Of a stretch of DNA of 64,000 bases, positions 25,531-42,591 are shown piece after piece. The stretch lies in the NCBI RefSeq assembly GCF_014196455.1, contig NZ_JACIDS010000004.1, positions 434,001-498,000 of the forward strand. Reading direction: 5' to 3'. A program made the position numbers and the translations under genes. Source of the DNA: Kaistia hirudinis (GTDB taxonomy: Bacteria; Pseudomonadota; Alphaproteobacteria; Rhizobiales; Kaistiaceae). Under the pieces are notes generated by a model that did not search any database, had not been told where the DNA came from, and saw nothing but the letters and a program-made list of their open reading frames with translations. Positions within the stretch are counted from its first letter, which is position 1. Every line of letters begins with the position of its first letter.

Positions 25531-26472
25531 TCAGGCGGCGATCCCCTCCGGTCCGGCGCCGCAGACGAGGGCGCAGACGGTTTCGCCGGGGGCGACCGGG
25601 ACGAGGCCGCCCTTCAGCGCGGCGAGAGCGGCGGCGCCGGAGAGGTCGGCGGCGAGGCCCATTTCGAACCAGAGCCATCTGGCGGCGTCGATCATCGCCG
25701 CATCGTCGACGAGGACGATGTCGTCGACCACGGAGCGCACGAGCTCGAACACGCGCTCGTCGGTGCGGGCGCAGGACATGGTGGGCACGATGGTCGTGAT
25801 CTTGTCGATCGTCACGACATGGCCGGCATCGATGCTGGCCTTGAGCGTCGGGCAGCCGACCGGCTCGATGCCGATGATGCGCGCCTTCGGCTTCAGCGCG
25901 CGGATCGCAGTGCCCATGCCGCCGACGAGCCCGCCGCCGCCGATCGCGATCAGGAAGGTGTCGACCTCGGGCAGATCCTCCAGGATTTCGAGCGCCACCG
26001 TGCCCTGGCCGGCGACGACGAGCGGATCGGCGAAGGGGTGGAAATAGACGGCGCCGATCTCCTTCGCATAGGCGCGGGCGGCCTTGTCGGCCTCGTCGAA
26101 AACGTCGCCGACCAGCTGGACCTCGGCGCCCCAGCGCTTCAGCTTTTCGAGCTTGGGCGGCGAGATGTTCTTCGGCACGAAGACATGCGCCGGTACGCCG
26201 GCGAGCTTGCCGGTCCGCGCCACGGCGACGCCGTGATTGCCGCCCGACGCCGTGACGATGCCGTGGGCAAGCTCTTCCTTCGGCGTCGCGAGCAGGCGGT
26301 TGGTCGCGCCGCGCGCCTTGAAGGAGCCCGTCGCCTGCAGCAATTCGAGCTTCAGATGCAGCGCGGCGTCGGTGATCGGGGCCGAGAGATTGTCGGCCTT
26401 CAGCATCGGCGTGCGGCGGATGTTCGCGCCGAGCCGTGCGCGCGCGGCCTGAACGTCGGAGAGGGTGATCAT
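25531..26472 (-). CDS. PLP-dependent threonine/serine dehydratase-like enzyme
   Basis: A 313-residue fold-type II PLP enzyme like catabolic threonine dehydratase, serine racemase or hydroxy-amino-acid dehydratases. The PLP lysine is in GSFKARGATN; SGGNHGVAVA contacts the cofactor; the phosphate loop is IAIGGGGLVGGMGTA. No ACT regulatory domain is present, so it is the short, non-isoleucine type. It is the last gene of the minus-strand run that starts with the pyroglutamyl-peptidase-like gene, 9 bp after the SDR. It could deaminate a beta-hydroxy amino acid formed upstream in the pathway (inference). Confidence 0.88.
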   Translation of the reverse strand: MITLSDVQAARARLGANIRRTPMLKADNLSAPITDAALHLKLELLQATGSFKARGATNRLLATPKEELAHGIVTASGGNHGVAVARTGKLAGVPAHVFVPKNISPPKLEKLKRWGAEVQLVGDVFDEADKAARAYAKEIGAVYFHPFADPLVVAGQGTVALEILEDLPEVDTFLIAIGGGGLVGGMGTAIRALKPKARIIGIEPVGCPTLKASIDAGHVVTIDKITTIVPTMSCARTDERVFELVRSVVDDIVLVDDAAMIDAARWLWFEMGLAADLSGAAALAALKGGLVPVAPGETVCALVCGAGPEGIAA

Positions 26473-26481
26473 TCCGTTTTC

Positions 26482-27276
26482 CTACAGCGCGGCCCAGCCG
26501 CCATCGACCGGCAGGTCGACGCCGGTGATCTGGCGCGACATGTCGCTGGCAAGGAAGAGGCAGGCATTGGCGACATCGGCATCGGTCGAGACGCGCTTCA
26601 GCGCATAGTCCTCGGCGTGGCGGCGCGCGGCTTCCTCCTCGCTGATGCCGAGCTCGCGCGCCATGTTGCGGCACACCTTCTCGCGGAAGCGCGGTCCGTC
26701 GACCATGCCCGGTGCGACGCAGTTGACGTTGATGTTGGCGGCGCCGAGTTCGAGCGCGAAGCTCTTGGTGAGCCCGCGGAGGCCCCATTTCGAGGCCGAA
26801 TAAGCGACGCGTCCGGCGCGGCCGCGCATGCCGAACGTGCCGCCGACATTGACGATCTTGCCGGAGCGCTGGGCCGTCATCACCGGCGCCACGGCACGGA
26901 TCATGTTGAAGCAGCCCGTCATATTGACGTCCACGATGTCGCGGAACTCCGCCGATGATGTCGCGGCGCCCGTCTTGCCGATCGGGCCGGTGCCGCCGGC
27001 GACATTGACGAGGATGTCGATCGCGCCGCCGAACCGCGCCTGCGCCGCGGCGACGGCGGCCTCGCAGGCCGCCTCGTCGGTGACGTCACAGGACTGGACG
27101 AGCGTCTCGCCGCCCGCCGCGCGGATCGCCGCCGCGACGGGCTCGATCGCCAGAAGGTCGCGCCCGAGCAGGACGGTGCGGCAACCTTCCGCGGCGAAGG
27201 CCTGGCTGACCGCCGCGCCCATGCCCTTGGCGGGCCCGGTGATCAGGGCGACCTTGCCGCCGAGTTTCAGATCCAT
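26482..27276 (-). CDS. SDR family oxidoreductase (paralogue A)
   Basis: A 264-residue classical short-chain dehydrogenase. The cofactor motif is TGPAKGMG, the structural motif NVAGG, and the catalytic Tyr-Lys pair is in YSASKWGLRG; the C-terminus is DLPVDGGWAAL. The R in LLGRD after beta-2 gives no clear NAD/NADP choice. It is strongly similar to the SDR at 33564-34352, sharing TGPAKGMG, NVAGG(V)xGPxGK and GGTFG. It lies between the threonine-dehydratase-like gene and the oxygenase gene, separated from the latter by a long hairpin. Confidence 0.92.
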   Translation of the reverse strand: MDLKLGGKVALITGPAKGMGAAVSQAFAAEGCRTVLLGRDLLAIEPVAAAIRAAGGETLVQSCDVTDEAACEAAVAAAQARFGGAIDILVNVAGGTGPIGKTGAATSSAEFRDIVDVNMTGCFNMIRAVAPVMTAQRSGKIVNVGGTFGMRGRAGRVAYSASKWGLRGLTKSFALELGAANINVNCVAPGMVDGPRFREKVCRNMARELGISEEEAARRHAEDYALKRVSTDADVANACLFLASDMSRQITGVDLPVDGGWAAL

Positions 27277-27306
27277 TCTCGCTCCTTGGATGGCAGGGCT
27301 AGCGTG

Positions 27307-27340
27307 ACGCCTTCACCGCGCATTTGCGCGGTGAAGGCGT
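27307..27340 (-). other. perfect 16-bp inverted repeat (hairpin) inside the minus-strand operon
   Basis: ACGCCTTCACCGCGCA (27307-27322) is followed by TT and its exact complement (27325-27340). It fills the gap between the oxygenase stop and the SDR start. No T-run follows on the minus strand, so it is more likely an mRNA-stabilising or partial-termination structure than a full intrinsic terminator. Confidence 0.7.
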
Positions 27341-27345
27341 GCGCC

Positions 27346-28371
27346 TCAATAGCCCGACTTCGCGCCCGGCTTCTTGAGATAGGCCATGCCCATCTCGTAG
27401 AAATCGCGCATGTAGGGCCCGTTCTCGAACGGCTCGAACTGTGCCGTCTCGCCGTTCTTCATGATCTCGGCGATCGGCGCGATCGTGACGTCGTAGTCGG
27501 GATTGGCGAAGAAGGGGATCGAGTAGCGGGCCTTCAGCGCGCGGTTGACCACGCGATGCGGCGTCGAGACGAAGCGGCCATTGGTCCATTTCATCATGAC
27601 ATTGCCGATATTGATCACATAGGCGCCCTTGACCGGCGGGGCGCCGATCCACACGCCGTCCTTGCGCTCGACTTCGAGGCCCCCGGTATCGTCCTGCATC
27701 AAGAGCGTGAAGGCGCCGGTATCGCGGTGCTCGCCCGCGCCGATCTCGATGTCCTTCTCGTCGAGCGACGCCGGCGGGCGATAATGCAGCAGCGAGAGCT
27801 GCACGACGGGCTTCTGGTAATAGGGCTCGAAATAGTCCTCCGGCAGGCCGAGCGCCATGGCGAAGGCGGCGCGGAGCTGCTTGGAGAGGTTCATTACCGC
27901 GTCGAAATAGGCTTCCACCGTCGGCTTGAAGGCCGGCAGACCCTCGGGCCAGCGGTTCGGCAAATGCAGCGGCTTGCCGGCGAGCACGTCCGGATCGTCG
28001 GGCGCGAGGTCGAGCATGAAGCGGTAGGTCTCGATCGCGCCGCCGACCGTGCCGCCCTCGGCTTCCAGCTTCGACGGCACATAGCCGCGCCAGTGTTCCA
28101 GCGTCGCGGCCGCGTTCATGCGCCCGGCGAAGGGCTGCGCGTAGAATTCCTTCGAGACGCCGAAGGTCGCGTCGATCAGATCCTGCGAAATGCCGTGGTT
28201 CGCGAGATAGAAGAAGCCGACCTCCTCGCAGGCCTTGCCGATCTCGGCCGCCACGGCGGCGCGCTCCGCGGCGCTGCCGGTCAGGAACGGGCCGAAATCG
28301 ATGATCGGGATGTCGGAAACGTCGACGCTCTGGGCCTTCTCATAGGCCTTGGGCAGTTCCGCGAGGGTCAT
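27346..28371 (-). CDS. Fe(II)/2-oxoglutarate oxygenase, isopenicillin N synthase-like family
   Basis: A 341-residue double-stranded beta-helix oxygenase. The N-terminal DIOX_N region has IPIIDFGPF and VGFFYLANHGI. The iron triad is H215-x-D217 (EHRDTGAFTLL) and H272 (STPHRVV); the 2-oxoglutarate-binding R-x-S is R282-Y-S284. All key residues are intact. Homologues hydroxylate or oxidatively close small molecules; the substrate here is unknown. Its ATG overlaps the stop of the pyroglutamyl-peptidase-like gene (ATGA), so the two act together, perhaps on a lactam or amide compound (inference). Confidence 0.9.
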   Translation of the reverse strand: MTLAELPKAYEKAQSVDVSDIPIIDFGPFLTGSAAERAAVAAEIGKACEEVGFFYLANHGISQDLIDATFGVSKEFYAQPFAGRMNAAATLEHWRGYVPSKLEAEGGTVGGAIETYRFMLDLAPDDPDVLAGKPLHLPNRWPEGLPAFKPTVEAYFDAVMNLSKQLRAAFAMALGLPEDYFEPYYQKPVVQLSLLHYRPPASLDEKDIEIGAGEHRDTGAFTLLMQDDTGGLEVERKDGVWIGAPPVKGAYVINIGNVMMKWTNGRFVSTPHRVVNRALKARYSIPFFANPDYDVTIAPIAEIMKNGETAQFEPFENGPYMRDFYEMGMAYLKKPGAKSGY

Positions 28372-29093
28372 GGCAGCAGTTCCTCCGAGGAGAGAGGTGG
28401 TGAAGCGGGGACGGCGCCGCAGGCGATGGCCTGGCGCGCGAGCGCGCCGAGCGCCGCGCGGACGGCGGTGAGCTGGGTTTCGAGCGCCATGGACGGCAAT
28501 TCGAGCGGGCTGCTCTGGGCGCTGCCGGGCTGGTTGCCGCGCTGGCGCATCAGCCAGACGATCTGCTCGGGCAGATAGGGCAGATGCAGGAAGCCGCAGG
28601 GCGATGCGAGGCCGAGCGCCTCCAGCGCGCCGAGATAGGTGTAGAGTGTGAGATTGCAGAGATGCGTGCCGGCGTGGAACGAGCGCCGCGCGGGGATATC
28701 CTGCGCCAGGATCGCCTCGACGACGGCGCCGGCGTCCCAGCTGGCCATGCGCGCCGCCGGGCCGCCGGGCTCGATCGGCTCGCCGCCGAGCGGGCGCACG
28801 CCCTCATTGTCGGGAATCGCGAAATGGCAGGCATTCACCGCGATCGTCTCGATGCGGATGTCCGGCGCGCCGAGCGCCAGGCCGAGCGCCAGCACGAAGA
28901 CCGGACGATGCTCGGCGACGAGCGCCGGAAGGTGATCCGGCAGGCCCGTCCGGCTGACCGGCGTCGCGCGGGCGATGATGGTGATGCCGTCGACCATCAT
29001 GCCGTCGAGGAAGGGGAGCAGCAGTTCCGCAGGGTTGGTCGGCAGGCCCGCGAAGGGCTTGGACCCGGTCACGAGCGCAACGGGACCGGTCAT
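28368..29093 (-). CDS. pyroglutamyl-peptidase I-like (C15 family) hydrolase
   Basis: A 241-residue member of peptidase family C15, which removes N-terminal 5-oxoproline from peptides. The catalytic triad is in place: E82 (IRIETIAVN), C146 (HAGTHLCNLTLY) and H170 (GFLHLPYLP), with family-typical spacing. The N-terminal VTGSKPFAGLPTNP corresponds to the usual TGFxPFxxxxxNP. The C-terminal ~35 residues are longer than in E. coli-type Pcp. As first gene of an operon with an oxygenase, SDR and dehydratase, it may open a lactam ring of a small molecule, not trim peptides (inference). GGGAGG precedes the ATG. Confidence 0.85.
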   Translation of the reverse strand: MTGPVALVTGSKPFAGLPTNPAELLLPFLDGMMVDGITIIARATPVSRTGLPDHLPALVAEHRPVFVLALGLALGAPDIRIETIAVNACHFAIPDNEGVRPLGGEPIEPGGPAARMASWDAGAVVEAILAQDIPARRSFHAGTHLCNLTLYTYLGALEALGLASPCGFLHLPYLPEQIVWLMRQRGNQPGSAQSSPLELPSMALETQLTAVRAALGALARQAIACGAVPASPPLSSEELLP

Positions 29094-29270
29094 CGTCCCG
29101 CCTCCCGCATTCGCTGCGCCCTGATGGCTTGCCGCATGATCGCTCCCTGTTCCGATGGCCGTGGGGTTCGGCAGGAACCATGGTTGGCAAGAGCCGTGCC
29201 ATGGCGGAACGCAAGGAGACTACAATGGAACGCCGGAGACGGCTGCGCAAAATCGCGTCACCCTGCGCAA

Positions 29271-29301
29271 ATCATCGACACAATATATCATTGTCGATGA
29301 T
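29271..29301. promoter_or_regulatory. 10+10-bp palindrome upstream of the pcp-like operon, probable GntR operator
   Basis: Perfect arms ATCATCGACA (29271-29280) and TGTCGATGAT (29292-29301) with an 11-bp AT-rich centre. A further CGACAA is at 29314-29319. The TTGTCG half-site recurs on the other side of the neighbouring gntR gene, which suggests one regulator acts at both places. The rest of the 237-bp gap (29094-29330) shows nothing else distinct. Confidence 0.55.
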
Positions 29302-29330
29302 CGGTATGATTTACGACAAAGGCCGAACGC

Positions 29331-30023
29331 CTATGCGAGGCGCTTGAGCCGCTCAACCACGGCGCGCCGCGTGCCGTCGATATGGTCGGCGAGGACCTTG
29401 CCGGCGCGCGCGGCGTCGCGGGCGATGGCGGCGTCGAGCAGTTCCTCGTGCTGCTGGGCGAGATGGACCTGTGCGACCGGGTCACGGCCGGCGAGACGGC
29501 GATAGCGATCGAACTGGTCGTGCAGCACGGCGCAGAAATGCAGCGTCCAGGGCGAGCCGCAGGCGGCGATGAGCGCATTGTGGAAGGCGCGGTGGCGGGT
29601 TTCCCATTCCTCGGGAACCGCATCCTCCTCCGGCGCGGCCTCCTGGCGGCCGAGGCGGCGCAGGCGATGATGCGCCAGCACGATGCCCTCCTCCCAGGCC
29701 TCGTCGCCCGAGCGGACGGCGGCTTCGATCGCCTGGCTCTCCAGTTCGATGCGGAGCGCAGCGATGTCCTCGAAATCGTCGAGCGAGATCGGCGGCACGC
29801 GGAAGCCGCGATTGACCTCCTGCACCACCAGCCGGTCGGCAGCGAGGCGCGACAGCGCCTCGCGCAGCGGGCTGGTGCCGATGCCGTAGCGCGCCTGCAG
29901 CTCGATGAAGCGCAGCCGCGCGCCGGCCTGGAGGGCGCCGGAAATGATGTCGGCGCGCAGCAGCGTGAACGCATCCGCCGACGCCGTCTCGTCCGCCTCG
30001 CGAATGGGAACCGCCTCAGCCAT
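29331..30023 (-). CDS. GntR family transcriptional regulator (FadR/FCD subfamily)
   Basis: A 230-residue regulator with an N-terminal winged helix (DAFTLLRADIISGALQAGARLRFIELQARYGIGTSPLREALSRLAADRLV in part) and a C-terminal all-helical FCD ligand domain. The FCD metal-site acidic and His residues are suggested by HRAFHNALIAACGSPW and the C-terminal LAQQHEELLDAAIARD. Small organic acids are the usual effectors. It lies between two operons of catabolic genes, with TTGTCG half-sites on both sides, and probably represses both and itself. Confidence 0.92.
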   Translation of the reverse strand: MAEAVPIREADETASADAFTLLRADIISGALQAGARLRFIELQARYGIGTSPLREALSRLAADRLVVQEVNRGFRVPPISLDDFEDIAALRIELESQAIEAAVRSGDEAWEEGIVLAHHRLRRLGRQEAAPEEDAVPEEWETRHRAFHNALIAACGSPWTLHFCAVLHDQFDRYRRLAGRDPVAQVHLAQQHEELLDAAIARDAARAGKVLADHIDGTRRAVVERLKRLA

Positions 30024-30073
30024 CGCAAACTCCTCTCGCGGCCATCGGCCGCATAATCCACTACACTAGAAAA

Positions 30074-30110
30074 TCGACAAAATTAGGATTCGGAGGCGGG
30101 TTGTCGACAA
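30074..30110. promoter_or_regulatory. paired TTGTCGA sites between gntR and the cyclic-amidohydrolase operon
   Basis: TCGACAA (30074-30080) and the perfect palindrome TTGTCGACAA (30101-30110), followed by TATCGAC, lie in the 135 bp between the divergent genes. On the minus strand TTGTCG with GATTAT 16 bp downstream could be the gntR promoter; on the plus strand the palindrome sits near a -35 position. This arrangement fits autorepression plus repression of the plus-strand operon. Confidence 0.55.
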
Positions 30111-30158
30111 TATCGACTTGCTGATAGGTTTTCACCGACCCGACAACCGAGACGCCTG

Positions 30159-31619
30159 ATGCAAGCTCCCGTAAGCTCCGCCGACCTTTCCGTGAAACCT
30201 GTCGATATGGTGCTGACCGGCGGGCGAGTCGTCAATGAAGACGGCATCGTCGATGCGTCGATCGCCGTGGATGGCGGCCGCATCGTCGCCATCGGGGATG
30301 AGCGGCTGATGCCGCCGGCGCGCGAGCGCATCGCGGTCGATGGCCTGCATGTGCTGCCGGGCGCGATCGACGTGCATGTCCATTTCCGCGAGCCGGGCAT
30401 GCCGCAGAAGGAGGACTGGGCGACCGGCAGCGCCGCGGCGGCGGTGGGCGGCGTCACCACCGTCTTCGACATGCCGAACACCATCCCGCCGACCGACAGC
30501 GTCGAGAATTTCCAATTGAAGCTCGGCGCGGCCAAGTCGAAGTCGATCGTTGATTTCGGGCTCTATGGCCTGCTCGGCGAGCACAATCTCGGTGATCTCG
30601 AGAGCCTCGCCGCCGCCGGGGTCATCGGCTACAAGCTCTTTCTTGGCAATACGACGGGCGATCTGCCATGCCCCTCGGACGGCGCGGTGCTCGAAGGCTT
30701 CGAGATCCTGGCCGCGCTGGGGCTGCGCTGCTCCATCCATGCCGAGAATTCGCCGATCCTGTTCTGGCGCCAGAACAAGCTGAAGGCGGCCGGACGCGAC
30801 GACGTGCTCGCGCATCTGGCGGCGCGCACCGACGTCGTCGCCGTCGAGGCGCTCAACCGCGCCGCCACGCTCGCCGATTGGACCGGCGCGCGCATCCATA
30901 TCGTGCATGAGAGCTGCGCGCGCTCGCTGCCCTTCATCCGCTTCTGGAAGGAGCGCGGCGTCGACATGACCGTCGAGACGCTGCCGCAATATCTCTATCT
31001 CTCCGCCGAGATGATGCTGAATCCGGGCGGCGAGGTGCTGCGGATGAACCCGCCGATCCGCGAGGCGGCGCATCAGGAACCGCTCTGGGCGGCGCTCGCC
31101 GACGGCACGATCGACATGATCGCCACCGACCATGCGCCGCATGCGATCGAGGAGAAATACGGGCCGCGCATCTGGGATCTCGCCTGCGGCTTCCCCGGCG
31201 TCGAGACGTCGATGGCGCTGATGCTGACCGCGGTCGCCGATGGCCGCCTCAGCCTGGAGCGCGTCGCGACGATCACCTCCGGCGCGCCGGCCCGCGCCTT
31301 CGGGCTCTATGGCCGCAAGGGCGTGATTCGCGTCGGCGCCGATGCCGATCTCGCCGTGGTCGACCTGAACCGCAGCGCGACGCTTTCGGCGGCGGCGCTG
31401 CATTCGCGCGGCAAGGTCTCCGCCTATGAGGGCAAGGAGGTCAAGGGCGTGCCGGTCATGACCTTCGTCCGTGGGCGCATGGTGGCGAAGGACGGCGAGG
31501 TCGTCGCTGAAAAGGGCTGGGGTGAACTGGTGCGGCCGAACATGGCCCCGCCGGCACCGCGCAACCTCAATACGACCATGAAGGAGATCCTCGAGCCCGG
31601 CCAGCGGCCATGGGGCTGA
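30159..31619 (+). CDS. cyclic amidohydrolase (dihydroorotase/allantoinase/hydantoinase family)
   Basis: A 486-residue binuclear metal amidohydrolase that opens cyclic amide rings. Metal ligands are visible: H73 and H75 (DVHVHFREPG), the likely carboxylated K159 (GYKLFLG), H194, H250 (IHIVHESC) and D324 (ATDHAPH). The sequence and length are closest to allantoinase/dihydroorotase-like enzymes; since it sits in a catabolic operon, pyrimidine synthesis is unlikely. It heads a plus-strand run with a Gfo/Idh/MocA enzyme and an amidohydrolase-2. Allantoin, a hydantoin or another ureido/lactam compound are options; the sequence does not decide. Confidence 0.88.
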   Translation: MQAPVSSADLSVKPVDMVLTGGRVVNEDGIVDASIAVDGGRIVAIGDERLMPPARERIAVDGLHVLPGAIDVHVHFREPGMPQKEDWATGSAAAAVGGVTTVFDMPNTIPPTDSVENFQLKLGAAKSKSIVDFGLYGLLGEHNLGDLESLAAAGVIGYKLFLGNTTGDLPCPSDGAVLEGFEILAALGLRCSIHAENSPILFWRQNKLKAAGRDDVLAHLAARTDVVAVEALNRAATLADWTGARIHIVHESCARSLPFIRFWKERGVDMTVETLPQYLYLSAEMMLNPGGEVLRMNPPIREAAHQEPLWAALADGTIDMIATDHAPHAIEEKYGPRIWDLACGFPGVETSMALMLTAVADGRLSLERVATITSGAPARAFGLYGRKGVIRVGADADLAVVDLNRSATLSAAALHSRGKVSAYEGKEVKGVPVMTFVRGRMVAKDGEVVAEKGWGELVRPNMAPPAPRNLNTTMKEILEPGQRPWG

Positions 31620-31632
31620 GGGGGAGGGCCTG

Positions 31633-32679
31633 ATGGCTGAGGCGCTGCGGATCGGGTTGATCGGGGCCGGCGCCATCGGCGCCTGGCATGCGCGCATCGT
31701 CGCCGAGCGGCCCGATGCCGTGCTCGCCGCGATCTGCGACATCGATACGGATCGCGCCGCCAAGCTGGCCGCGCCATGGGGTGCGGCGGTCTTCACCGAT
31801 GCCGCCGCCTTCTTTGCGGAAGCCGCTCTGGACGGCGTCATCATCGCCAGCCCCGAACGCGTGCATGAGGAGCAGGCGCGCCTCGCCGCTGCGGCGCGTG
31901 TGCCGATGCTGATCGAAAAGCCGGTGGCGCCCGATCCGGCTGGCATCGCCGCGATCCGCGCGGCGACGGCTTCGACCGGTGTTCCGGTGATGGCTGGCCA
32001 TGTCGAGCGCTTCGAGATCGGCTCGGCGCAATTGAAGGCGGCCGTCGATGAGGGTGTCTGCGGCAAGGTCGTCACGATCGCCGCGCGCCGCCAGTTCGTC
32101 GCGGCCGATACCCCGCGCTTCAAGGGCCTCTCGACGACGTTGCGCATTCTCGGCGTGCATGATTTCGACCTCGTCGCCTGGGTCCATCCCGTGCCGGTCG
32201 TGCAGGTCTATGCCGCGGCTGGCCGCGGACGGGTGCATGCGGAGACGGGCCTCGACGATCATGTCGTGACGACATTGCGCTTTGCCGATGGCGCCATCGC
32301 GCTGGTCGAAAGCGGCTGGACGCTGCCGGCGCCCTATGGCGTCTTTTCCGCGCCCGCCTCCTGGTCGCCGGCCGGCAATAACCGACTCGACGTGTTCGGC
32401 GCGTTGGGCATGGTCTCGAACGATATGAGCCTCCGCGGCCAGCAACTCGTCGCCTTCGACGAGGCCGCGGGCTTCCGCGCCGCCGGCATCCGCCACCAGC
32501 CGATCCTCAATGGGCGCGTCGTCGGCGCGCTCGCCGAGGAAGTCGCCGCCTTCATCCGTATGATCCGCGAGGGGACGGAGCCGCTCGTCGGGCTCGACGA
32601 TGCCGAGCGGGCGGTGCGGATCGTCGAGGCGGCGGAAGCCTCGCTCGCCTCCGGCCTGCCGGTGCGGCTGGACGGCTGA
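31633..32679 (+). CDS. Gfo/Idh/MocA family oxidoreductase
   Basis: A 348-residue NAD(P)-dependent dehydrogenase. The Rossmann motif IGLIGAGAIGAWHARI is at the start, and the E-K-P cofactor motif is in MLIEKPVAPD. The second domain has GHVERFEIGSAQ and HDFDLVAWVHP, the latter supplying the D-x-x-x-W/H catalytic region of the family. It is second in the plus-strand operon, 13 bp after the cyclic amidohydrolase and 1 bp before the next gene, so it acts in the same pathway. Confidence 0.9.
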   Translation: MAEALRIGLIGAGAIGAWHARIVAERPDAVLAAICDIDTDRAAKLAAPWGAAVFTDAAAFFAEAALDGVIIASPERVHEEQARLAAAARVPMLIEKPVAPDPAGIAAIRAATASTGVPVMAGHVERFEIGSAQLKAAVDEGVCGKVVTIAARRQFVAADTPRFKGLSTTLRILGVHDFDLVAWVHPVPVVQVYAAAGRGRVHAETGLDDHVVTTLRFADGAIALVESGWTLPAPYGVFSAPASWSPAGNNRLDVFGALGMVSNDMSLRGQQLVAFDEAAGFRAAGIRHQPILNGRVVGALAEEVAAFIRMIREGTEPLVGLDDAERAVRIVEAAEASLASGLPVRLDG

Positions 32680-32680
32680 G

Positions 32681-33553
32681 ATGGCGCGCTATGACGGCCC
32701 GATCGTCGACGCGCATCACCACCTCTGGTCCTATGACGCGGCGCTGCTGCCCTGGCTCGCGGGCGAGCCCACCCTCGCGCGCGATGTCTCCGCCGAGGAC
32801 TATTTCGCCGCCGCGGCGCCGCTGAATGTCGTCGCCAGCGTCTGGATCGAGGCCGTCGCGACCGATCCGCTCGCCGAGGCGCGGGCGGCGGCGCGTCTCA
32901 ATGCCGCCGAGCCCCGTCTCGCCGCCGCGATCATCGCGCATGCGCCGCTGGATGCGCCGGATCTAGCCGCGCGGCTGGACCGCCTCGCTGAGGCCGCGCC
33001 GACGCTGCGCGGCATTCGCGACATCGTTGCGGTGCGACCGGGCTTTCCGAGCTTCGCCCGGCATGGCGATCTCCTGGAGCGCGCCGCCTTCGCCGCGGGG
33101 CTCAAGGTACTCGCGCGGCGCGGCCTCGCCTTCGACCTCATGCTCGAACCCTGTCAGATGGGCGCGGCGCTCCGCCTCGCGGCGGCGATCCCCGACCTTT
33201 CCATCATCATCGAGCATGCCGGCAGCCCGGATTTTTCGACGGAGGAAGGTTCTGCACGGTGGGCCGGCGCCATGCAGGCGGCGGCGCGGCTGCCGAATAT
33301 CAGCGTGAAGATCTCGGCGCTGCATTGCCGCATGCCCGGCTGGAGCGATGCCGCGCTGGCCGCGCCGATCCGCGCGCTGGTGGACTGGTTCGGCGTCGAT
33401 CGCCTCGCCTTTGCCAGCGACTTCCCGGTGCACGACCGCACCGTGCCCTTCACCCGCGGCTATGAGACGTTCGCGCGCGCGGTGGCGGATCTTTCGCCCG
33501 ACGAGCAGCGCGCGCTGTTCCAGGGCACGGCGCGGCGGCTCTATCGGATCTGA
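32681..33553 (+). CDS. amidohydrolase-2 family (TIM-barrel) hydrolase or lactonase
   Basis: A 290-residue metal-dependent TIM-barrel hydrolase, as in the L-rhamnono-/fuconolactonase and 2-pyrone-4,6-dicarboxylate lactonase group. It begins IVDAHHHLWSYD, the metal motif, followed by GIRDIV, SIIIEHAGSPD, SVKISALHC and the terminal FASDFPVHD with the catalytic Asp. The true start is the ATG at 32681, one base after the previous stop. In this operon it would open a lactone made by the Gfo/Idh/MocA dehydrogenase, a common pairing (inference). Confidence 0.9.
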   Translation: MARYDGPIVDAHHHLWSYDAALLPWLAGEPTLARDVSAEDYFAAAAPLNVVASVWIEAVATDPLAEARAAARLNAAEPRLAAAIIAHAPLDAPDLAARLDRLAEAAPTLRGIRDIVAVRPGFPSFARHGDLLERAAFAAGLKVLARRGLAFDLMLEPCQMGAALRLAAAIPDLSIIIEHAGSPDFSTEEGSARWAGAMQAAARLPNISVKISALHCRMPGWSDAALAAPIRALVDWFGVDRLAFASDFPVHDRTVPFTRGYETFARAVADLSPDEQRALFQGTARRLYRI

Positions 33554-33563
33554 TCGCCCACCA

Positions 33564-34352
33564 TCACACGATCGTGCCGCCGTCGACGAGCAGGTCCTGG
33601 CCGGTGACGTTGCGCGCCATGTCGGAGAGCAGGAAGACGACGGCGTTGGCGATGTCGTCCGCCGTACTCAGCCGGCCGAGCGCTGCGGTCGTGGCGAAGC
33701 GGGCATAGCGCTCCTCATAGGTGATGCCTTCGAGCGCGGCCTCTTCCAAGAACTGGCGCAGGATGCGCGGGCCCTCGACGCCGCCGGGCGAGACCATGTT
33801 GACGCGGACGCCAGCGCTGCCGGCTTCCAGCGCTGCCGATTTGGTGAGGCCGCGCAGCGTCCATTTGGTGGCGCCGTAGAGCGAGGCGTTGCGCACGCCC
33901 TTGAAGCCGAACGTGCCGCCGATATTGACGATGCCGCCGCCGCCCCGCGCCATCAGCTCCGGCAGCATGGCCTTCATGACGAGGAAGGTGCCGAGCACGT
34001 TGACGTCGAACAGCTCGCGGAAATCGTCGGTGGTGTGCTCCCAGAGCTTCTTGCCCGTCGGGCCGGAGACGCCGGCGACATTGACCGCGCCATGCAGGCG
34101 GGTTCCGAAATGCGCTGCGGCCTCGGCCACCGCATGCGCGACCTCGGCCTCGTCGGTGACATCGGTGCGGATCGCCAGCGCCTCGCGGCCGAGCGCGCGG
34201 ACGTCCGCGGCGATCGCCTCGATCGGCGCCATGTCGCGACCGATCAGGACGAGATCGCCGCCCGCCGCGGCGATCGCGCGGGTGATGGCGCCGCCCATGC
34301 CCTTGGCCGGCCCGGTGACGAGGATGGCGCGGCCTTCGAGGGGAAGCGGCAT
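33564..34352 (-). CDS. SDR family oxidoreductase (paralogue B)
   Basis: A 262-residue classical SDR with cofactor motif TGPAKGMG, NVAGVSGPTGK, GGTFGFKG and catalytic YGATKWTLRG; it ends DLLVDGG. It is closely similar throughout to the SDR at 26482-27276, suggesting duplication within the cluster followed by divergence in substrate. It is convergent with the amidohydrolase-2 gene (10 bp apart) and is the last gene of a minus-strand run headed by the ABC transporter genes. Confidence 0.92.
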   Translation of the reverse strand: MPLPLEGRAILVTGPAKGMGGAITRAIAAAGGDLVLIGRDMAPIEAIAADVRALGREALAIRTDVTDEAEVAHAVAEAAAHFGTRLHGAVNVAGVSGPTGKKLWEHTTDDFRELFDVNVLGTFLVMKAMLPELMARGGGGIVNIGGTFGFKGVRNASLYGATKWTLRGLTKSAALEAGSAGVRVNMVSPGGVEGPRILRQFLEEAALEGITYEERYARFATTAALGRLSTADDIANAVVFLLSDMARNVTGQDLLVDGGTIV

Positions 34353-34377
34353 TGCGGTTTCTCTCTTTCGGGAATGT

Positions 34378-35160
34378 TCAGCTGCGCCAGCTCGTCAGCC
34401 GCTTCTCGACCAGCGTCGTGGCGGAGAAGATCAGATAGGCGAGCAGCATGGAGACGACCACGGCTGCCCAGAGCAGGTCGTTCTTGCGATAGGAGGCGGC
34501 ATCGAGGATCAGCGAGCCGAGCCCCGGCGCGCCGGAGAGCCATTCGGCCAGCATGGCCGAGAGGATGGCGCTGGTCGCCGCGCTGCGAAGGCCCGCGAAG
34601 ATGAAGGGGAGGGCGAAGGGAAACCGCACCTTGAGGAAGAGCTGCACGCGGCTCGCGCCGAGCACATGCATGAGTTCGAGCGCGTTCTTTCGCGTCGAGG
34701 AGAAGCCCTTCATGGCGTTGACCATGATGGGGAAGAACGAGACGATCACGACGACGACGATCGCCGTGCCGATGCCGCGGCCGAACACCATGATCAGGAT
34801 CGGCGCGATGGCGAGGACGGGCGCGGTGCGGAGGCCAATGACGATCGGCAGGACGGCATGAGTCGCCTTCTGCGAATTGACGAAGAGCGCGGCAAGGCCG
34901 ATGGCGACGAGGAAGGCGACGACGAGGCCGGCCGCGGCGTTGCGCAGGGTCAGCGCGACGGAGAGGCCGATCTTGCCGAAATTGGCCTCGAAGGCGGCGA
35001 GCGTCGCTTCCGGCGGCGGCATGATGTAGGGCGGCACGGCGAAGACCGTGACCGCCGCTTTCCAGATCACGACGATCACCAGCGCGAAGACGAGCGGCCC
35101 GAGCGCCGCCCGAAGCAGGCTGCCGGCCCGGTTCGGCGCGGTGGCAGCAACATCAGCCAT
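34378..35160 (-). CDS. ABC transporter permease (SsuC/ThiX/TauC-like), second permease
   Basis: A 260-residue inner-membrane permease with about six transmembrane helices. The cytoplasmic coupling loop is MHVLGASRVQLFLKVRFPFALP, of the nitrate/sulfonate/taurine type. It overlaps the companion permease by 8 bp and precedes SDR paralogue B. Together with the second permease it would form a heterodimer served by the ATPase at 35973-36779. Confidence 0.92.
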   Translation of the reverse strand: MADVAATAPNRAGSLLRAALGPLVFALVIVVIWKAAVTVFAVPPYIMPPPEATLAAFEANFGKIGLSVALTLRNAAAGLVVAFLVAIGLAALFVNSQKATHAVLPIVIGLRTAPVLAIAPILIMVFGRGIGTAIVVVVIVSFFPIMVNAMKGFSSTRKNALELMHVLGASRVQLFLKVRFPFALPFIFAGLRSAATSAILSAMLAEWLSGAPGLGSLILDAASYRKNDLLWAAVVVSMLLAYLIFSATTLVEKRLTSWRS

Positions 35161-35980
35161 GGCCGCCGCCTCCGCCAGTTGTCTGCTGCGGCGCGCCGAT
35201 CACGATCCGCTCGGCTAGCGCGACGAGGCCATAGGCAATGGTCGCGACCAGGCAGACGGCGACGATGGTGAGCCAGGCGAGCGGCACGTCGAAGGAGAAC
35301 AGCGCATAGGTCATCATGATGCCGAGGCCGCGATCGGCGCTGACCCATTCGGCGATGAGCGCGCCGAGGACGGAGAGGGGCGCGGCGATCTTCAGCGCCG
35401 AGAACAGGTAGGGCAGGGCCGAGGGGAAGGCGAGTTTCGCGAGGCGCTGCCAGCGCGACGCCGCGAGGATGTGGAAGAGTTCGGAGACGTTGCGGTCGAT
35501 CGCCTTGAAGCCCTGGATCACGCCGACAACGAGGGGAAACAGCGCCGCGATGGTCGCGATGACGATGCGCGAGGCGAGGCCATTGCCGACCCAAACCATC
35601 AGGATCGGCGTCAGCGCGATCAGCGGGATCGAATCCACGATGATGGCGAACTTCATGATGCTCGGCTCGGTGCGCCGCCATGAGGTGGCGACGGCTCCAA
35701 GGACGAGCGCGACGAGGGTTGCCAGGAAGAAGCCGGCCGCCGCCGACAGCACGGTCGGCACCATGTGGTAAAAGAGATCCGACCAGGAGCGGGTGAACGC
35801 GCCGGCGATCTCGCTCGGCGCCGGCACGGTGATCGGCAGCAGGTTCGCCGCCTTCGCCAGTTCCCAGATCGCCAGAATGACAATGATCACGGCGGCGGGC
35901 GCGAACAGCCTGCCCGCGGCGCGGCCGATGGCGCCGCCTTCGCGCGGGCGCGGCGCGGCGAGCGCGGCCTCGTCAGCCAT
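35153..35980 (-). CDS. ABC transporter permease (SsuC/ThiX/TauC-like), first permease
   Basis: A 275-residue inner-membrane permease; hydrophobic segments start at LFAPAAVIIVILAIWELA, and the coupling loop is FHILAASRWQRLAKLAFPSALP. The frame is open upstream; the ATG at 35978-35980, overlapping the ATPase end by 8 bp, starts MADEAALAAPRPRE. The C-terminus has a Gly run (TTGGGGGHG). Two different permeases in one importer is less common in this family, which often uses a homodimer. Confidence 0.9.
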   Translation of the reverse strand: MADEAALAAPRPREGGAIGRAAGRLFAPAAVIIVILAIWELAKAANLLPITVPAPSEIAGAFTRSWSDLFYHMVPTVLSAAAGFFLATLVALVLGAVATSWRRTEPSIMKFAIIVDSIPLIALTPILMVWVGNGLASRIVIATIAALFPLVVGVIQGFKAIDRNVSELFHILAASRWQRLAKLAFPSALPYLFSALKIAAPLSVLGALIAEWVSADRGLGIMMTYALFSFDVPLAWLTIVAVCLVATIAYGLVALAERIVIGAPQQTTGGGGGHG

Positions 35981-36779
35981 GGGCGCGCTCCGGTCGGGCG
36001 GCCGCGCCATCATCCGCCAGTTCGTCGCCGAACAGGGCGGCGCGCACGGCGTTTTCCAGCCGGTTGAATTCCGCCGTCTGCAGCATGGCGAGATGGCGCG
36101 GGCGCGGCAGGTCGACCTCGATCGTCGTGACCAGACGGCCGGGATGGGCGGCGAGCACATGCACCTGATCGGCCATGAACACGGCCTCGCCGATCGTGTG
36201 CGTGACGAGGATCGCCGTGGTGCCGGTCTCCTGCCAGATGCGGAGCAGTTCGAGATTCATGCGCTGGCGTGTGATCTCGTCGAGCGCACCGAACGGCTCG
36301 TCGAGCAGCAGCACCTTGGGCCGCAGCGTCAGGGCGCGGGCGATCGAGACGCGCTGCTGCATGCCGCCGGAAAGCTGGGCGGGCTTGGCATTCTCGAAGC
36401 CGGAGAGGCCGACGAGGCGGATCAGGTTCTCCGGCCGCGGGCCGTCGCCGATCGGGCCGCCGGCGATCTCGAGCGGTAGCGAGACATTGTCGAGCACGGT
36501 GCGCCAGGGCAGCAGGCTCGCATCCTGAAAGACGAAGCCGATATCGTGGCGCAGCCGCGCCTCGCCCGGCGGTTTGCCGCCGATGGTGATCGCGCCGCTG
36601 GTCGGCCCGAGAATGTCGGCGACGAGCCTGAGCAGCGTGGACTTGCCGCAGCCCGACGGGCCGATCAGCGCGGAGAAGCTGCCCGAGGGGAAGGTCAGCG
36701 AGACATCGTCGATCGCCCGGACCGACCGGCGGTCGATCTCGAAATCCTTGGAGACGTGGTCGAGGATGATCTCGGTCAT
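35973..36779 (-). CDS. ABC transporter ATP-binding protein (SsuB/TauB-like)
   Basis: A 268-residue ATPase. Walker A is GPSGCGKSTLL, the signature is LSGGMQQRVSIARAL, Walker B with D-loop is VLLLDEPFGALDE, and the switch His is in VTHTIGEAVF. The IEVDLPRPR near the end is typical of the nitrate/sulfonate/bicarbonate class. First of the run ATPase-permease-permease-SDR; the binding-protein gene lies upstream across a 202-bp gap that holds a 31-bp inverted repeat. Confidence 0.95.
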   Translation of the reverse strand: MTEIILDHVSKDFEIDRRSVRAIDDVSLTFPSGSFSALIGPSGCGKSTLLRLVADILGPTSGAITIGGKPPGEARLRHDIGFVFQDASLLPWRTVLDNVSLPLEIAGGPIGDGPRPENLIRLVGLSGFENAKPAQLSGGMQQRVSIARALTLRPKVLLLDEPFGALDEITRQRMNLELLRIWQETGTTAILVTHTIGEAVFMADQVHVLAAHPGRLVTTIEVDLPRPRHLAMLQTAEFNRLENAVRAALFGDELADDGAAARPERAHG

Positions 36780-36840
36780 GCGATCAAGTCACTCCACATG
36801 GCCGCCCGCCGTGGTGGGCGCGCCCCGGCCCGCAATCAGT

Positions 36841-36948
36841 TGTCATTGCCGGGCTTGACCCGGCAATCCAGACTGGCTTGCGGCCTTCGGCTTTGGTTCC
36901 GGTCTTGCGAAGAAGGACTGGATTGCCGGGTCAAGCCCGGCAATGACA
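36841..36948. repeat. perfect 31-bp inverted repeats flanking 46 bp (REP doublet / MITE-like)
   Basis: The arm at 36841-36871 (begins TGTCATTGCCGGG) is exactly complementary to 36918-36948. Each arm can also fold on itself, TTGCCGGG pairing with CCCGGCAA around CTTGA. The 46-bp centre has no coding signal. It lies between the binding-protein gene and the ATPase gene of one transporter. Such elements are dispersed repeats in this order and may change expression within the operon. Confidence 0.88.
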
Positions 36949-36981
36949 GCCTTTCTGTCGTTGCTCGTTCGGCCTGATGCC

Positions 36982-38058
36982 TCACTTCCCGTGCGCGGCG
37001 GCGATGAGCTTCTGCGTGACGACGTCCTCGACCTTGACCTGGCCCTCTTTCAGCTCGCCGGCCTTGATCGAGAAATCGATGCCCTGCTGGAACACCGAGG
37101 GCTCGATCCAGAGCAGGCCGTGCGTCTTGGCGTCGCCCACAGGGATGAAGTCCTTGTAGACACCGGCCTCGGCGGTCTGCGCCTTCAGGTCCAGGCCGCG
37201 CTGGCCGTATTTGTCGACCATCAGCTTGGCCATGGCGTCGGGATTGTCGAGGAACCATTGCCAGCCCTTGATCTCGGCCTTGAGCCAGCGCGTGATCAGG
37301 TCGGCCTTGGTATCGATCGACTCGTCGGTCGCGAACAGCACGCCGGCATAGCCGGGCAGGCCGAGGTCGTTCATGTAGGCGACCTCGATATCGACGCCGC
37401 GCTCCTTGAGCATGACACCCTGATTGGTCGCCCAGCCGTAATAGCCGTCGACCTGCCCGGCGGCGAGCATACCGGGATCCGTGCCGACCGGGACATAATT
37501 GACCGTCGAGGGATCGATACCGGCCGCTTTGAGCAGCACGTCCATCTGCGGGCGCGTCGCATTGGGCAGCGCGATCGTCTTGCCCGGGAAATCCTGCAGC
37601 GTCTTGATGGGCTTCGACGCGAGCGACATGATCGCGCCCGGCGCCTTCTGCATGATCGCGGCGAAGGCCTTGACCGGCACGCCCGAGATGCGCGTGCGCA
37701 CGACGCCTTCGACATCGCTGTCGGAGGTCATCGCCTGGCCGCTGACGACGACGGCCGTGCCATCGGTGCCCGGGCCGCCCGAGAGGAACTCGGCCTCGAT
37801 GCCCTCATCGGCGAAATAGCCCTGGTCGATGGCCGCGAAATGGCCGCCGAACTGGATGGATTTGATCCAGCCGAGCTGGTGGACGAACTTGTCCGCCGCA
37901 TAGGCCGTCCTCGCGCCGAAGGAGAGGGCGCCGGGCGCGACGAAGACGCCGGCGAGGAGGCCGCCGCCGGCCTTCAGCAGCGAGCGGCGATCAAGCTTCA
38001 GCGCCGGCGCCTTGAGCGGGGCGGTGATCAGGTCGGAGGTGCTTTTCTTGTCGGTCAT
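36982..38058 (-). CDS. ABC transporter substrate-binding protein (NMT1/THI5-like, SsuA-like)
   Basis: A 358-residue periplasmic binding protein. A twin-arginine-like N-region and hydrophobic core (DRRSLLKAGGGLLAGVF...ALSFGARTAYAA) indicate export, probably by Tat, with cleavage after AYA. The mature part has VHQLGWIKSIQFGGHFAAIDQGYF, typical of the NMT1/THI5 and nitrate/sulfonate group that binds pyrimidine precursors, sulfonates and other small heterocycles. The start is the internal ATG at 38058, preceded by GGAAAGG. It is the first gene of the importer. Confidence 0.92.
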   Translation of the reverse strand: MTDKKSTSDLITAPLKAPALKLDRRSLLKAGGGLLAGVFVAPGALSFGARTAYAADKFVHQLGWIKSIQFGGHFAAIDQGYFADEGIEAEFLSGGPGTDGTAVVVSGQAMTSDSDVEGVVRTRISGVPVKAFAAIMQKAPGAIMSLASKPIKTLQDFPGKTIALPNATRPQMDVLLKAAGIDPSTVNYVPVGTDPGMLAAGQVDGYYGWATNQGVMLKERGVDIEVAYMNDLGLPGYAGVLFATDESIDTKADLITRWLKAEIKGWQWFLDNPDAMAKLMVDKYGQRGLDLKAQTAEAGVYKDFIPVGDAKTHGLLWIEPSVFQQGIDFSIKAGELKEGQVKVEDVVTQKLIAAAHGK

Positions 38059-38151
38059 TGGCTGGCCTTTCCGGCATCCCTTCTGGAGAATGTCGCTGGT
38101 CAAAAGAGCAAGCTCCGTGCCACAAGAAAGCCGCGCAAACCCGACTTTCTA

Positions 38152-38166
38152 CAAAATGGTATTTTG
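38152..38166. promoter_or_regulatory. 15-bp palindrome between the binding-protein gene and the alpha/beta-hydrolase gene
   Basis: Arms CAAAAT and ATTTTG around GGT, in an AT-rich patch of the 176-bp gap between divergent starts. It is a candidate operator or promoter element. No TTGTCG half-site of the gntR type was seen in this gap. Confidence 0.3.
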
Positions 38167-38234
38167 CCGATAATCGAGGTTCATGGCGCAAATCGCAGCA
38201 AGTGTTGCTTTCTTGAGCAAGGGAACAGGCTGAC

Positions 38235-39047
38235 ATGGCGGAAACGATCATCGCCAGCGGCATCGCGCAGCATGTCGCGATCGAGGGCCCTGCGGCGGGG
38301 CCGGCCCTGCTGCTCGTGCATGGCCTCGGCTGGGATCACACGCTCTGGGCCGGCCAGATCGAGACGCTGGTCGCGCGCGGCTGGCGCGTGATCGCGCCGG
38401 ACCTCCGCGGCATGGGGGCGAGCGACAAGCCGGGCAGCCCCTATTCGATCGATCTCTATGCCGACGACATGCTGGCGCTGATGGATGCGCTTGGCGTGCG
38501 GCGCTTCGCGCTCGCCGGATTCTCTCTCGGCGGCATCATCGCGGCGGCGATGATCGGCAAGGCGGCGGCGCGGATCGAGGCGGCGCTGATCGCCTGCTGC
38601 GGCGTGCATTCGACGGCGGAAGGCGAGGCCGTCACGGAGGCGATGCTGGCGCGCGCAGTCGAGCTCGGTCCGCTCGCCTTCGCCCGCGAGCAGGCGGCGG
38701 CGATCTGGCATCCGGATTTTGCCGCGGCGCATCCCGACGCGGTCGAGCGCTTCATCGTCTGGCGCGCCGCAATGGATCAGGCGGCGCTGACGCGCGCGTT
38801 TCGCTCGGGTTACGGCATCGACTATCGGCCGGTGCTGGATGCGGCGCGGCTGCCGGTCCGCTTCGTCGCGGCCGATCGCGACCCCTTCGCCTCCGTCGCG
38901 ACGCTGGAGGATCTCAAACGCCGGGTTCCGGGCGCCGATCTCGTCGTGATCGAACGGTCGGGCCATATGGCGCCGATCGAGCAGCGCCCGGCCTTCGACG
39001 CGGCGCTGGTGGATTTTCTCGATCGGGCGGCCGTCAGGAAGGGGTAG
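38235..39047 (+). CDS. alpha/beta hydrolase (enol-lactonase/RutD-like)
   Basis: A 270-residue alpha/beta-hydrolase fold enzyme. The oxyanion loop is LLVHGLGWDHTLW, the nucleophile S97 is in GFSLGG, the acid is in VAADRDPF and the His in ERSGHMAPIE. Length and motifs are closest to 3-oxoadipate enol-lactonase and RutD-type hydrolases. Divergent from the importer binding-protein gene, it probably belongs to the same catabolic region. Its end overlaps the convergent lacI-type gene by 14 bp. Confidence 0.88.
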   Translation: MAETIIASGIAQHVAIEGPAAGPALLLVHGLGWDHTLWAGQIETLVARGWRVIAPDLRGMGASDKPGSPYSIDLYADDMLALMDALGVRRFALAGFSLGGIIAAAMIGKAAARIEAALIACCGVHSTAEGEAVTEAMLARAVELGPLAFAREQAAAIWHPDFAAAHPDAVERFIVWRAAMDQAALTRAFRSGYGIDYRPVLDAARLPVRFVAADRDPFASVATLEDLKRRVPGADLVVIERSGHMAPIEQRPAFDAALVDFLDRAAVRKG

Positions 39048-40104: not shown

Positions 40105-40156
40105 GACCCCATTCCACGCGATTCGGCGGCTCGCCGAAACCGATATCGGAATTTTC

Positions 40157-40172
40157 TGGCAATCGATTGCCA
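40157..40172. promoter_or_regulatory. LacI-type operator O1
   Basis: Perfect 16-bp palindrome TGGCAATCGATTGCCA with the central CG typical of LacI-family operators. It lies 53 bp upstream of the lacI-type start and 22 bp upstream of the -10/-35 pair's first box start on the plus strand. An identical copy is 57 bp downstream. Confidence 0.88.
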
Positions 40173-40178
40173 ACCCCG

Positions 40179-40206
40179 TTGCACATTTTCCGGACTCGGC
40201 TAATCT
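40179..40206 (+). promoter_or_regulatory. sigma70-type promoter of the sugar operon
   Basis: TTGCAC (40179-40184) and TAATCT (40201-40206) with a 16-bp spacer, directly between the two LacI operators. The start of transcription would fall at about 40213, the first base pair of operator O2, an ideal place for repression. Confidence 0.72.
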
Positions 40207-40213
40207 AGGTGCA

Positions 40214-40229
40214 TGGCAATCGATTGCCA
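40214..40229. promoter_or_regulatory. LacI-type operator O2
   Basis: An exact second copy of TGGCAATCGATTGCCA, 57 bp centre-to-centre from O1 and overlapping the predicted transcription start. Paired sites at this distance would allow a short DNA loop across the promoter. Confidence 0.88.
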
Positions 40230-40320
40230 ACCCATAACGCATTGATTTTGAAATGATCTGGCCAAGGCCAGGTCGCGGATGTCCGCTGCGCGGGCGCCGG
40301 CTGAATGGATGGAAGAGACG

Positions 40321-41274: not shown

Positions 41275-41283
41275 CCCTTCGCC

Positions 41284-41307: not shown

Positions 41308-41354
41308 TCCAGCAAGGCCCCGCAAGAGGGCCCCTTCCTTGCAGAGGTGACTTC

Positions 41355-42587: not shown

Positions 42588-42591
42588 GCCG

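Follow-up and report, generated by a model that had tools for sequence, protein, structure and literature searches.

As set out in the passages considered here, lumichrome catabolism in Nocardioides simplex proceeds by methyl oxidation to a carboxylate, followed by stepwise hydrolysis of the pyrimidine ring by several hydrolases (PMC12746152). We analyzed a 64,000-nt stretch of the Kaistia hirudinis genome (contig NZ_JACIDS010000004.1, positions 434,001 to 498,000; referred to below as the window), which carries an island of about 15 genes; nine other genomes have much of it too. The route that we propose for this island would resemble the lumichrome/riboflavin system in placing side-chain oxidation ahead of pyrimidine ring hydrolysis (PMC12746152). 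In contrast to the island, the lumichrome/riboflavin cluster relies on P450, xanthine oxidase and Rieske enzymes, and no C15 hydrolase, Fe(II)/2-oxoglutarate (2OG) oxygenase or pair of short-chain dehydrogenases (SDRs) appears in those passages, which were compared with the island by description rather than by sequence (PMC12746152). Two other described systems resemble single components of the island. Pyroglutamyl peptidase I shares the fold and the Glu-Cys-His triad of the island C15 protein, which differs by a Phe/Tyr to Ser change in a loop, a score below the model cut-off and a branch of its own. The pyrimidine binders ThiY and THI5 are sequence relatives of the island binding protein, whose gene, unlike theirs, has no Rfam riboswitch and is linked to degradation-type genes. 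The enzyme families of the island are all known; for their combination, a search of open-licence papers on the gene set and related pathways gave no published description among the matches listed.

The locus is one co-inherited unit with a real gene set. Judged from sequence comparisons, there is about an even chance that it forms a single catabolic system, probably GntR-controlled, for a small N-heterocycle that bears an amino substituent and is of the pyrimidine or six-membered cyclic-ureide kind. Its genes and sites, in window coordinates, are the following.

21458-22921, plus strand: deaminase-type amidohydrolase of the AtzA/SsnA/MTA-deaminase superfamily, from a homology search of the window
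25531-26472, minus strand: PALP, a PLP-dependent serine/threonine-dehydratase-like protein (PF00291, 5.5e-81)
26482-27276, minus strand: SDR1, a short-chain dehydrogenase (Pfam class)
27346-28371, minus strand: Fe(II)/2OG oxygenase, IPNS-like (PF03171 and PF14226)
28368-29093, minus strand: C15 (pyroglutamyl-peptidase-like) hydrolase with an altered pocket loop (PF01470, 8.8e-36)
29094-29330, minus strand: GntR-to-C15 gap with further operator-like copies
29331-30023, minus strand: GntR-FCD regulator (Pfam GntR and FCD domains; CsiR-like below cut-off)
30101-30111, strand not assigned: operator-like palindrome TTGTCGACAAT in the GntR/cyclic amidohydrolase gap, 0 mismatches in the window
30159-31619, plus strand: cyclic amidohydrolase of the dihydroorotase/allantoinase superfamily (Pfam class)
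31633-32679, plus strand: Gfo/Idh/MocA dehydrogenase, Gfo below (Pfam class)
32681-33553, plus strand: amidohydrolase-2, lactonase-like (PF04909)
33564-34352, minus strand: SDR2, a short-chain dehydrogenase and SDR1 paralogue (Pfam class)
34378-35160, minus strand: ABC permease 1
35153-35980, minus strand: ABC permease 2, probably starting with the ATG at 35980, to judge from the sequence (longest open reading frame to 36160)
35973-36779, minus strand: ABC ATPase, SsuB/TauB-like (NCBIfam matches below cut-off)
36982-38058, minus strand: NMT1/THI5-type binding protein (PF09084)
38164-38174, plus strand: operator-like site between the binding protein and alpha/beta hydrolase genes, 1 mismatch
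38235-39047, plus strand: alpha/beta hydrolase, 3-oxoadipate-enol-lactonase-like (NCBIfam match below cut-off)

All of the enzyme classes that an initial annotation, made from the DNA alone, had named within 25531-39047 were found, and Pfam agreed for 10/10 proteins scanned. Pfam and NCBIfam were run on these ten proteins and NCBIfam also on the ATPase, the alpha/beta hydrolase and the deaminase. Seven of the ten same-direction neighbor pairs overlap or lie no more than 25 bp apart.

The distribution of the island was established by genome searches, which sampled 385 members of the class, 397 of the order and 398 of the phylum, and by a contig scan with the C15 protein as the single query sequence, which detects close relatives only; the counts are therefore lower bounds. 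The contig scan returned 16 loci, four of which hold the island neighborhood: Kaistia dalseonensis (L032), a metagenome-assembled genome (MAG) named Bosea (L033), Prosthecomicrobium pneumaticum (L034), in which the importer block flanks the C15 operon on the opposite side, and a MAG from an alphaproteobacterium (L035). These were counted once with G673:C4, G510:C19, G714:C3 and G247:C135, respectively. At the other twelve loci, only C15 and ATPase homologues matched among the 14 island protein queries. Altogether, the island-type C15 is encoded in ten distinct genomes, counting that of the window, and large parts of the set recur in them in several gene orders, so that the gene set is indeed conserved together elsewhere, as the initial annotation had suggested checking. 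The MAG named Bosea is placed in the genus of the window together with K. dalseonensis, and its name may be wrong.

Within the ten genomes, the 2OG oxygenase is present in all, as is the cyclic amidohydrolase, which lies in the same cluster in eight and on a separate contig in G449 and G662. The deaminase was found genome-wide in nine, and each permease in nine, window included, with permease 2 a fragment in G247 and a partial match at a contig end in G662 left out of the count. The ATPase was found in 8/9 other island genomes at 70-93% identity, Gfo in 8/10, and GntR in 7/10 within the DNA fetched; SDR1 is in the cluster of 7/10, with an additional copy in a second locus of G449. Some absences reflect contig ends or the limits of the DNA fetched (G247, G662 and the alpha/beta hydrolase of G510). 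PALP was considered as a core gene and rejected: it occurs in only 4/10 island genomes (the window, G605, G673 and G510) and is therefore accessory. In the genus of the window, the cyclic amidohydrolase, the deaminase and the 2OG oxygenase occur at 79% identity or above in the same 5/14 members (G000, G727, G605, G510 and G673), and C15 is found in the same five of the 12 genus members searched. G714, outside the genus, holds all four genes. Members of one genus with and without the island represent natural knock-outs for growth tests.

The same data bear on whether two unrelated pathways, one consisting of C15, 2OG oxygenase and SDR1 and the other of the importer, cyclic amidohydrolase and Gfo, share a regulator and a neighborhood by chance. 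Gene order varies, and PALP, Gfo and amidohydrolase-2 come and go. In G449 the set is split over two contigs of one genome: the C15/2OG/importer module shows no SDR1 or cyclic amidohydrolase in the DNA fetched, and both are in the second locus (L124:5596-14535), a Skermanella-like arrangement of SDR1, cyclic amidohydrolase, deaminase, AtzD-type ring opener and DUF3830. However, the identical presence pattern within the genus and the occurrence of C15, 2OG oxygenase and cyclic amidohydrolase in 10/10 genomes make two pathways quite unlikely, in favor of one co-inherited system.

The regulatory link, and with it, indirectly, the question whether the operons answer to unrelated inducers, was addressed with the operator-like motif TTGTCGAYAA, which they share. 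A site was present in the GntR/cyclic amidohydrolase gap of 7/8 genomes, the sole miss being G972, whose contig lacks C15; for G690 the counted gap is that between GntR and SDR1, and it holds a site. The GntR-to-C15 gap contained the motif in 6/6 genomes and the binding protein/alpha/beta hydrolase gap in 7/8, with G449 as the miss. Shuffled gaps gave 0.04, 0.06 and 0.12 sites per set, with the provisos that the shuffles preserve base composition only and that the genomes compared are related, and 11.5 kb of window coding DNA held one site. These counts suggest that the island is probably GntR-controlled through an operator-like motif shared by three promoters. The GntR protein itself scored 150.9 bits with the CsiR model NF008576, below the cut-off of 218. 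Several observations weigh against the regulatory assignment. The motif was picked out by eye in the very gaps that were later counted, and was scored at up to one mismatch; no site was found upstream of the deaminase (0/4 gaps). The motif is also frequent, with 160 one-mismatch 11-mers genome-wide versus 24 for the reversed control, and the 20-kb loci L032, L034, L076 and L077 hold 7, 7, 7 and 6 sites, of which 2, 4, 3 and 1, by subtraction, fall outside the counted gaps. At two mismatches, the window contains 40 11-mers versus 10.3 expected, many of them outside the gaps. A direct repeat, TTTGCGCAG..TGAC....TTTTGCGCA, was also noticed upstream of the C15 operon at 29244-29271 (minus strand; 0 expected by chance); inspection by eye shows the two copies preserved in the corresponding gap of L033, L076 and L077, and the second alone in L032 and L034.

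The C15 protein retains the triad E82, C146 and H170, as had been read from the sequence initially, and these residues are invariant in a 30-row alignment. An AlphaFold2 model (mean pLDDT 89.9) has the C15 fold, with C15 structures occupying all of Foldseek ranks 1-34. The pocket loop reads TGS in 10/10 island genomes, and the position of this Ser is Phe or Tyr in 44/44 other rows, one archaeal and the rest alphaproteobacterial, which read TGF, TGY, AGY or LGF. We take the loop aromatic of TG[F/Y] to line the pyroglutamate pocket (Phe10 in the Bacillus enzyme); a literature search on the C15 pocket gave no fitting paper among the matches listed. A 54-row tree placed the ten island proteins together on one side of a branch (SH-aLRT 98), the tree being a quick one with no bootstrap and with the pocket columns kept in; four of the 14 island rows listed had been dropped beforehand as duplicates, three of these being partial genes from other stretches. 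Island C15, L009 and Rhodobacteraceae rows have in common a His two positions ahead of the catalytic Cys.

These features bear on pyroglutamyl-peptide scavenging, in which C15 would be an ordinary pyroglutamyl peptidase and the remaining enzymes would degrade the released residues. The intact fold and triad agree with such a role. The Phe/Tyr to Ser change in all ten genomes argues against it, as do the score with the pyroglutamyl-peptidase I model TIGR00504 (127.9 bits, cut-off 201.75), the NMT1 type of the importer and the fact that several other alphaproteobacterial C15 genes adjoin ABC ATPase genes of other systems. We consider scavenging very unlikely: to judge from its residues, the island C15 seems no longer to be a pyroglutamyl peptidase and to have turned to a new job. 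If so, this C15 "peptidase" branch is marked as likely non-peptidase. Among other C15 loci, a Rhodobacteraceae/Roseibium-type gene stands beside two ABC ATPase matches in 9/10 cases (L036-L045), possibly a link to peptide import; a Microvirga plasmid (L052:7155-11755) has its C15 gene within an ABC importer operon, and in G473 and G437 (L082 and L083) C15 adjoins an ABC ATPase match.

The cyclic amidohydrolase carries HVHFR[ED]PG and MPNT in 16/16 orthologous rows: eight from island genomes, six from sister clusters, that of G972 and a solitary copy in G780. We presume that the Arg of HxHxR and the Asn of MPN hold the carboxylate, as in dihydroorotase; this role would suggest a carboxylated ring as the substrate. 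The dihydroorotase subfamily model TIGR00857 was exceeded (318 versus 279.05 bits). Four further full-length homologues of the enzyme are present in the genome, none of them assigned to pyrC.

Two alternative substrates depend on this enzyme. Were it an allantoinase, the island would serve allantoin or purine-ureide use, and the AllB model TIGR03178 was indeed reached, by about 1.3 bits (359.1 versus 357.85). However, Bacillus allantoinase (3hm7, the sole comparator for the substrate-loop motif) reads HVHFNEPG and MPLN, a motif that none of the 16 rows shares, and no allantoate, ureidoglycolate or uricase family appeared in the best 25 rows per protein for the ten proteins scanned; we judge allantoin very unlikely. 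Alternatively, a lactam or five-membered hydantoin could be imported and opened by a hydantoinase-like enzyme, with C15 acting on the lactam amide. The superfamily includes L-hydantoinase, and the best PDB match is 1gkr (2.3e-81); moreover, the Novosphingobium and G334 clusters described below hold HyuA/HyuB genes (caprolactamase-like, below cut-off), and that of G334 an M20 gene. Against this, the D-hydantoinase/dihydropyrimidinase model TIGR02033 was not reached (301 of 393.25 bits), the Arg/Asn signature is unlike that of the solved hydantoinases compared (1gkr reads HVHIID and MPIT), and a deaminase-type enzyme travels with the set, so that a lactam or hydantoin is somewhat unlikely. If our reading is right, the names "pyroglutamyl-peptidase I" and "allantoinase AllB" are misleading for the island genes.

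The deaminase-type gene was found in the window with the G690 protein as the query, 2.6 kb from PALP; the family scan and the genome-wide and genus searches ran on the stretch from 21476. Its homologue lies within the cluster in G449, G690 and G662 and adjoins it in G673, G714 and G727. At 79% identity or above, the gene is found in exactly the five island carriers among the 14 genus members, and its metal motif HDHGR is kept in 13/13 relatives. The right edge initially drawn for the island looks correct, and the left edge was too short, since the deaminase belongs to it. The gene is present at 40-66% identity in four other family members (G687, G777, G778 and G779), which have no close cyclic amidohydrolase or 2OG orthologue, and is therefore not exclusive to the island. 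Its presence in the set points to an amino-substituted ring. Between the deaminase and PALP, the gene at 23579-24847 resembles, on visual inspection, one for an ECF sigma factor; its protein gave no NCBIfam match at E 1e-20. Rhizobium pRL11 and Ensifer plasmids (L097 and L098) carry a homologue of the deaminase (42%); a few kb away stands an importer whose ATPase is 55% identical to that of the island, and on pRL11 CoA-transferase and hydratase genes lie in between. A literature search on presumed Rhizobium locus names gave no match.

Sister clusters with SDR1 at 62-74% identity were detected in Azospirillum, Skermanella, Novosphingobium, G334, G616 and G972, and SDR1, cyclic amidohydrolase and the deaminase homologue occur together in all of these except G972, on plasmids in Azospirillum and Skermanella. 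The 6.2-kb contig of G972 carries SDR1, cyclic amidohydrolase, GntR, SDR2, 2OG oxygenase and DUF3830, with no deaminase or C15. The additional genes of the sister clusters include those of cyanuric-acid-amidohydrolase, formamidase, DUF3830, HyuA/HyuB, M20 and nitrilase-like types. The Azospirillum, Skermanella and G616 clusters (L048, L049, L099 and L105) resemble the island in combining SDR1 (70-74%), the cyclic amidohydrolase (52-56%) and the deaminase (44-45%) with an ABC importer that has NMT1-like binding proteins. Unlike the island, they show no C15, Gfo, amidohydrolase-2, GntR or 2OG oxygenase match in the DNA fetched, have two binding-protein genes and all contain a formamidase. DUF3830 is found in the Azospirillum and Skermanella clusters, and an AtzD-type gene in the latter. 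DUF3830 also adjoins the cyclic amidohydrolase in island genomes G690 and G662; a homology search of the window gave no match to it. Near the A. brasilense sister cluster, the annotation also lists a TauD-type dioxygenase, which is unrelated. The HyuAB-type clusters of Novosphingobium RL4 (L050/L100) and G334 (L107) share SDR1, SDR2, cyclic amidohydrolase, deaminase and 2OG oxygenase homologues with the island, the Novosphingobium deaminase lying about 23 kb from SDR1. They differ from it in having HyuA/HyuB and a cystathionine-lyase-like gene in both and M20 in G334, and in showing no C15 and no NMT1 importer match in the DNA fetched. We infer that the sister sets represent a ring-handling core, with C15, Gfo, amidohydrolase-2 and the alpha/beta hydrolase as its expansion.

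The deaminase and the sister clusters also raise the case of barbiturate or s-triazine-like degradation, in which the deaminase would remove amino or alkylamino substituents from an aminopyrimidine or a triazine before ring opening. The enzyme belongs to the AtzA/TrzN/SsnA superfamily, and the cyanuric-acid-amidohydrolase-type protein of the Skermanella cluster scored 549.6 bits against a cut-off of 360, with a homologue in the second locus of G449. However, apart from that separate G449 locus, searches with the cyanuric-acid ring opener as a query gave no match in the island DNA of the ten genomes, and such a pathway leaves the two SDRs, the 2OG oxygenase and the lactonase-type genes unexplained. 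We regard it as unlikely.

The binding protein matched PF09084 at 150.7 bits (cut-off 20.5), and its nearest solved chain is the N-formyl-4-amino-5-aminomethyl-2-methylpyrimidine (FAMP)-binding 3ix1 (3.9e-21, 78.7 bits), with THI5 also among the nearest. Thiamin-salvage transport was considered and set aside: no Rfam family reached its gathering score in 20000-46000, which therefore contains no thiamin pyrophosphate riboswitch. Of the initial annotation, the notion of one catabolic system, probably for an N-ring compound, with its own importer and GntR regulator is supported, and its choice of a lactam, hydantoin or pyroglutamyl amide as the substrate is not supported as it stands: the C15 Ser stands against Phe/Tyr in 44/44 rows, HxHFR and MPNT are unlike the motifs of the solved hydantoinases and the Bacillus allantoinase compared, the binding protein is nearest to pyrimidine binders, and the deaminase, which that annotation missed, points to an amino ring.

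Regarding the remaining enzymes, the 2OG oxygenase keeps HxD...H and RxS intact, as initially read (HRD...H...RYS in the window), with the ligands present in 12/12 relatives. SDR1 has YxxxK in 12/12 relatives and is 49-50% identical to SDR2, and the alpha/beta hydrolase motif GxSxGG occurs in 8/8 relatives. Amidohydrolase-2 has two PDB matches, 6uvz and 4dlf, the latter presumably a lactonase, and scored 100.6 bits, against a cut-off of 400, with its sole NCBIfam match, the L-fucono-1,5-lactonase model NF052480. Amidohydrolase-2-type decarboxylation is known from thymine salvage; for the island protein it was set aside, the two structures and the single NCBIfam match favoring the lactonase-like side. 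Ectoine use, considered for PALP, was rejected, as the EutB models were not reached (218.8 versus 413.35 bits for hydroxyectoine dehydratase TIGR02991).

In the route that we propose, the NMT1/ThiY-type ABC importer would take up the compound and the deaminase-type amidohydrolase would swap its ring amino group for oxygen. The 2OG oxygenase and the two SDRs could then oxidize a methyl or hydroxymethyl substituent of the ring towards a carboxylate, and the dihydroorotase-like cyclic amidohydrolase would open the carboxylated ring. The C15-like enzyme and the alpha/beta hydrolase might cleave the leftover amide or ester, and Gfo and the lactonase-like amidohydrolase may process a lactone- or lactam-forming side product. 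Given a FAMP/THI5-like binder, a deaminase, an oxygenase with dehydrogenases and a seemingly carboxylate-seeking ring opener, deamination, oxidation, opening and cleavage would be the simplest story. Only tentatively do we extend this to an amino-methyl-pyrimidine-type metabolite, such as the thiamin pyrimidine or a methylated aminopyrimidine, with C15 possibly hydrolyzing a non-peptide ring-opening product and the dihydroorotase-like enzyme opening the oxidized ring. If true, the island offers genetic access to a class of compounds for whose bacterial turnover the literature search showed no assigned genes of such kind.

A number of findings count against this assignment of substrate and steps. 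The hint of a pyrimidine comes from a match of 78.7 bits within a transporter family that is broad. Among NCBIfam models, the binding protein and the ATPase match those of the sulfonate/taurine type best, all below cut-off, and no thiamin pyrophosphate riboswitch was found, as described above. All NCBIfam matches of the deaminase are far below the cut-offs (best 109.3 versus 522), and its name is therefore a superfamily-level one. This gene lies ~136-137 kb from the island on the same contig in G605 and G510, was not found by the genome-wide search of G247, and is present in G777 and G778 without other island genes. The roles given to the C15 loop aromatic and to the Arg/Asn pair are presumed ones, and since six family homologues with QVHFREPG (L071-L075 and L111) share Arg and Asn, the signature is not island-specific. 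The metal-motif patterns of the lactonase-like protein fit 5/7 relatives each, making its activity less certain than those of the other enzymes; at E 1e-60 neither G690 nor G662 gave a match to Gfo, and Gfo with the lactonase-like gene would fit a sugar-like moiety as well.

Finally, the region right of the island (39034-46713) holds a LacI regulator, a TIM-barrel protein, a sugar-type ABC importer and, by eye, a further oxidoreductase open reading frame. The LacI and sugar-ABC genes past 39047 were rejected as island members: they are not beside the island in G605, G673 and G714, and among the four relatives examined the part from LacI to the ATPase adjoins it in G727 only.

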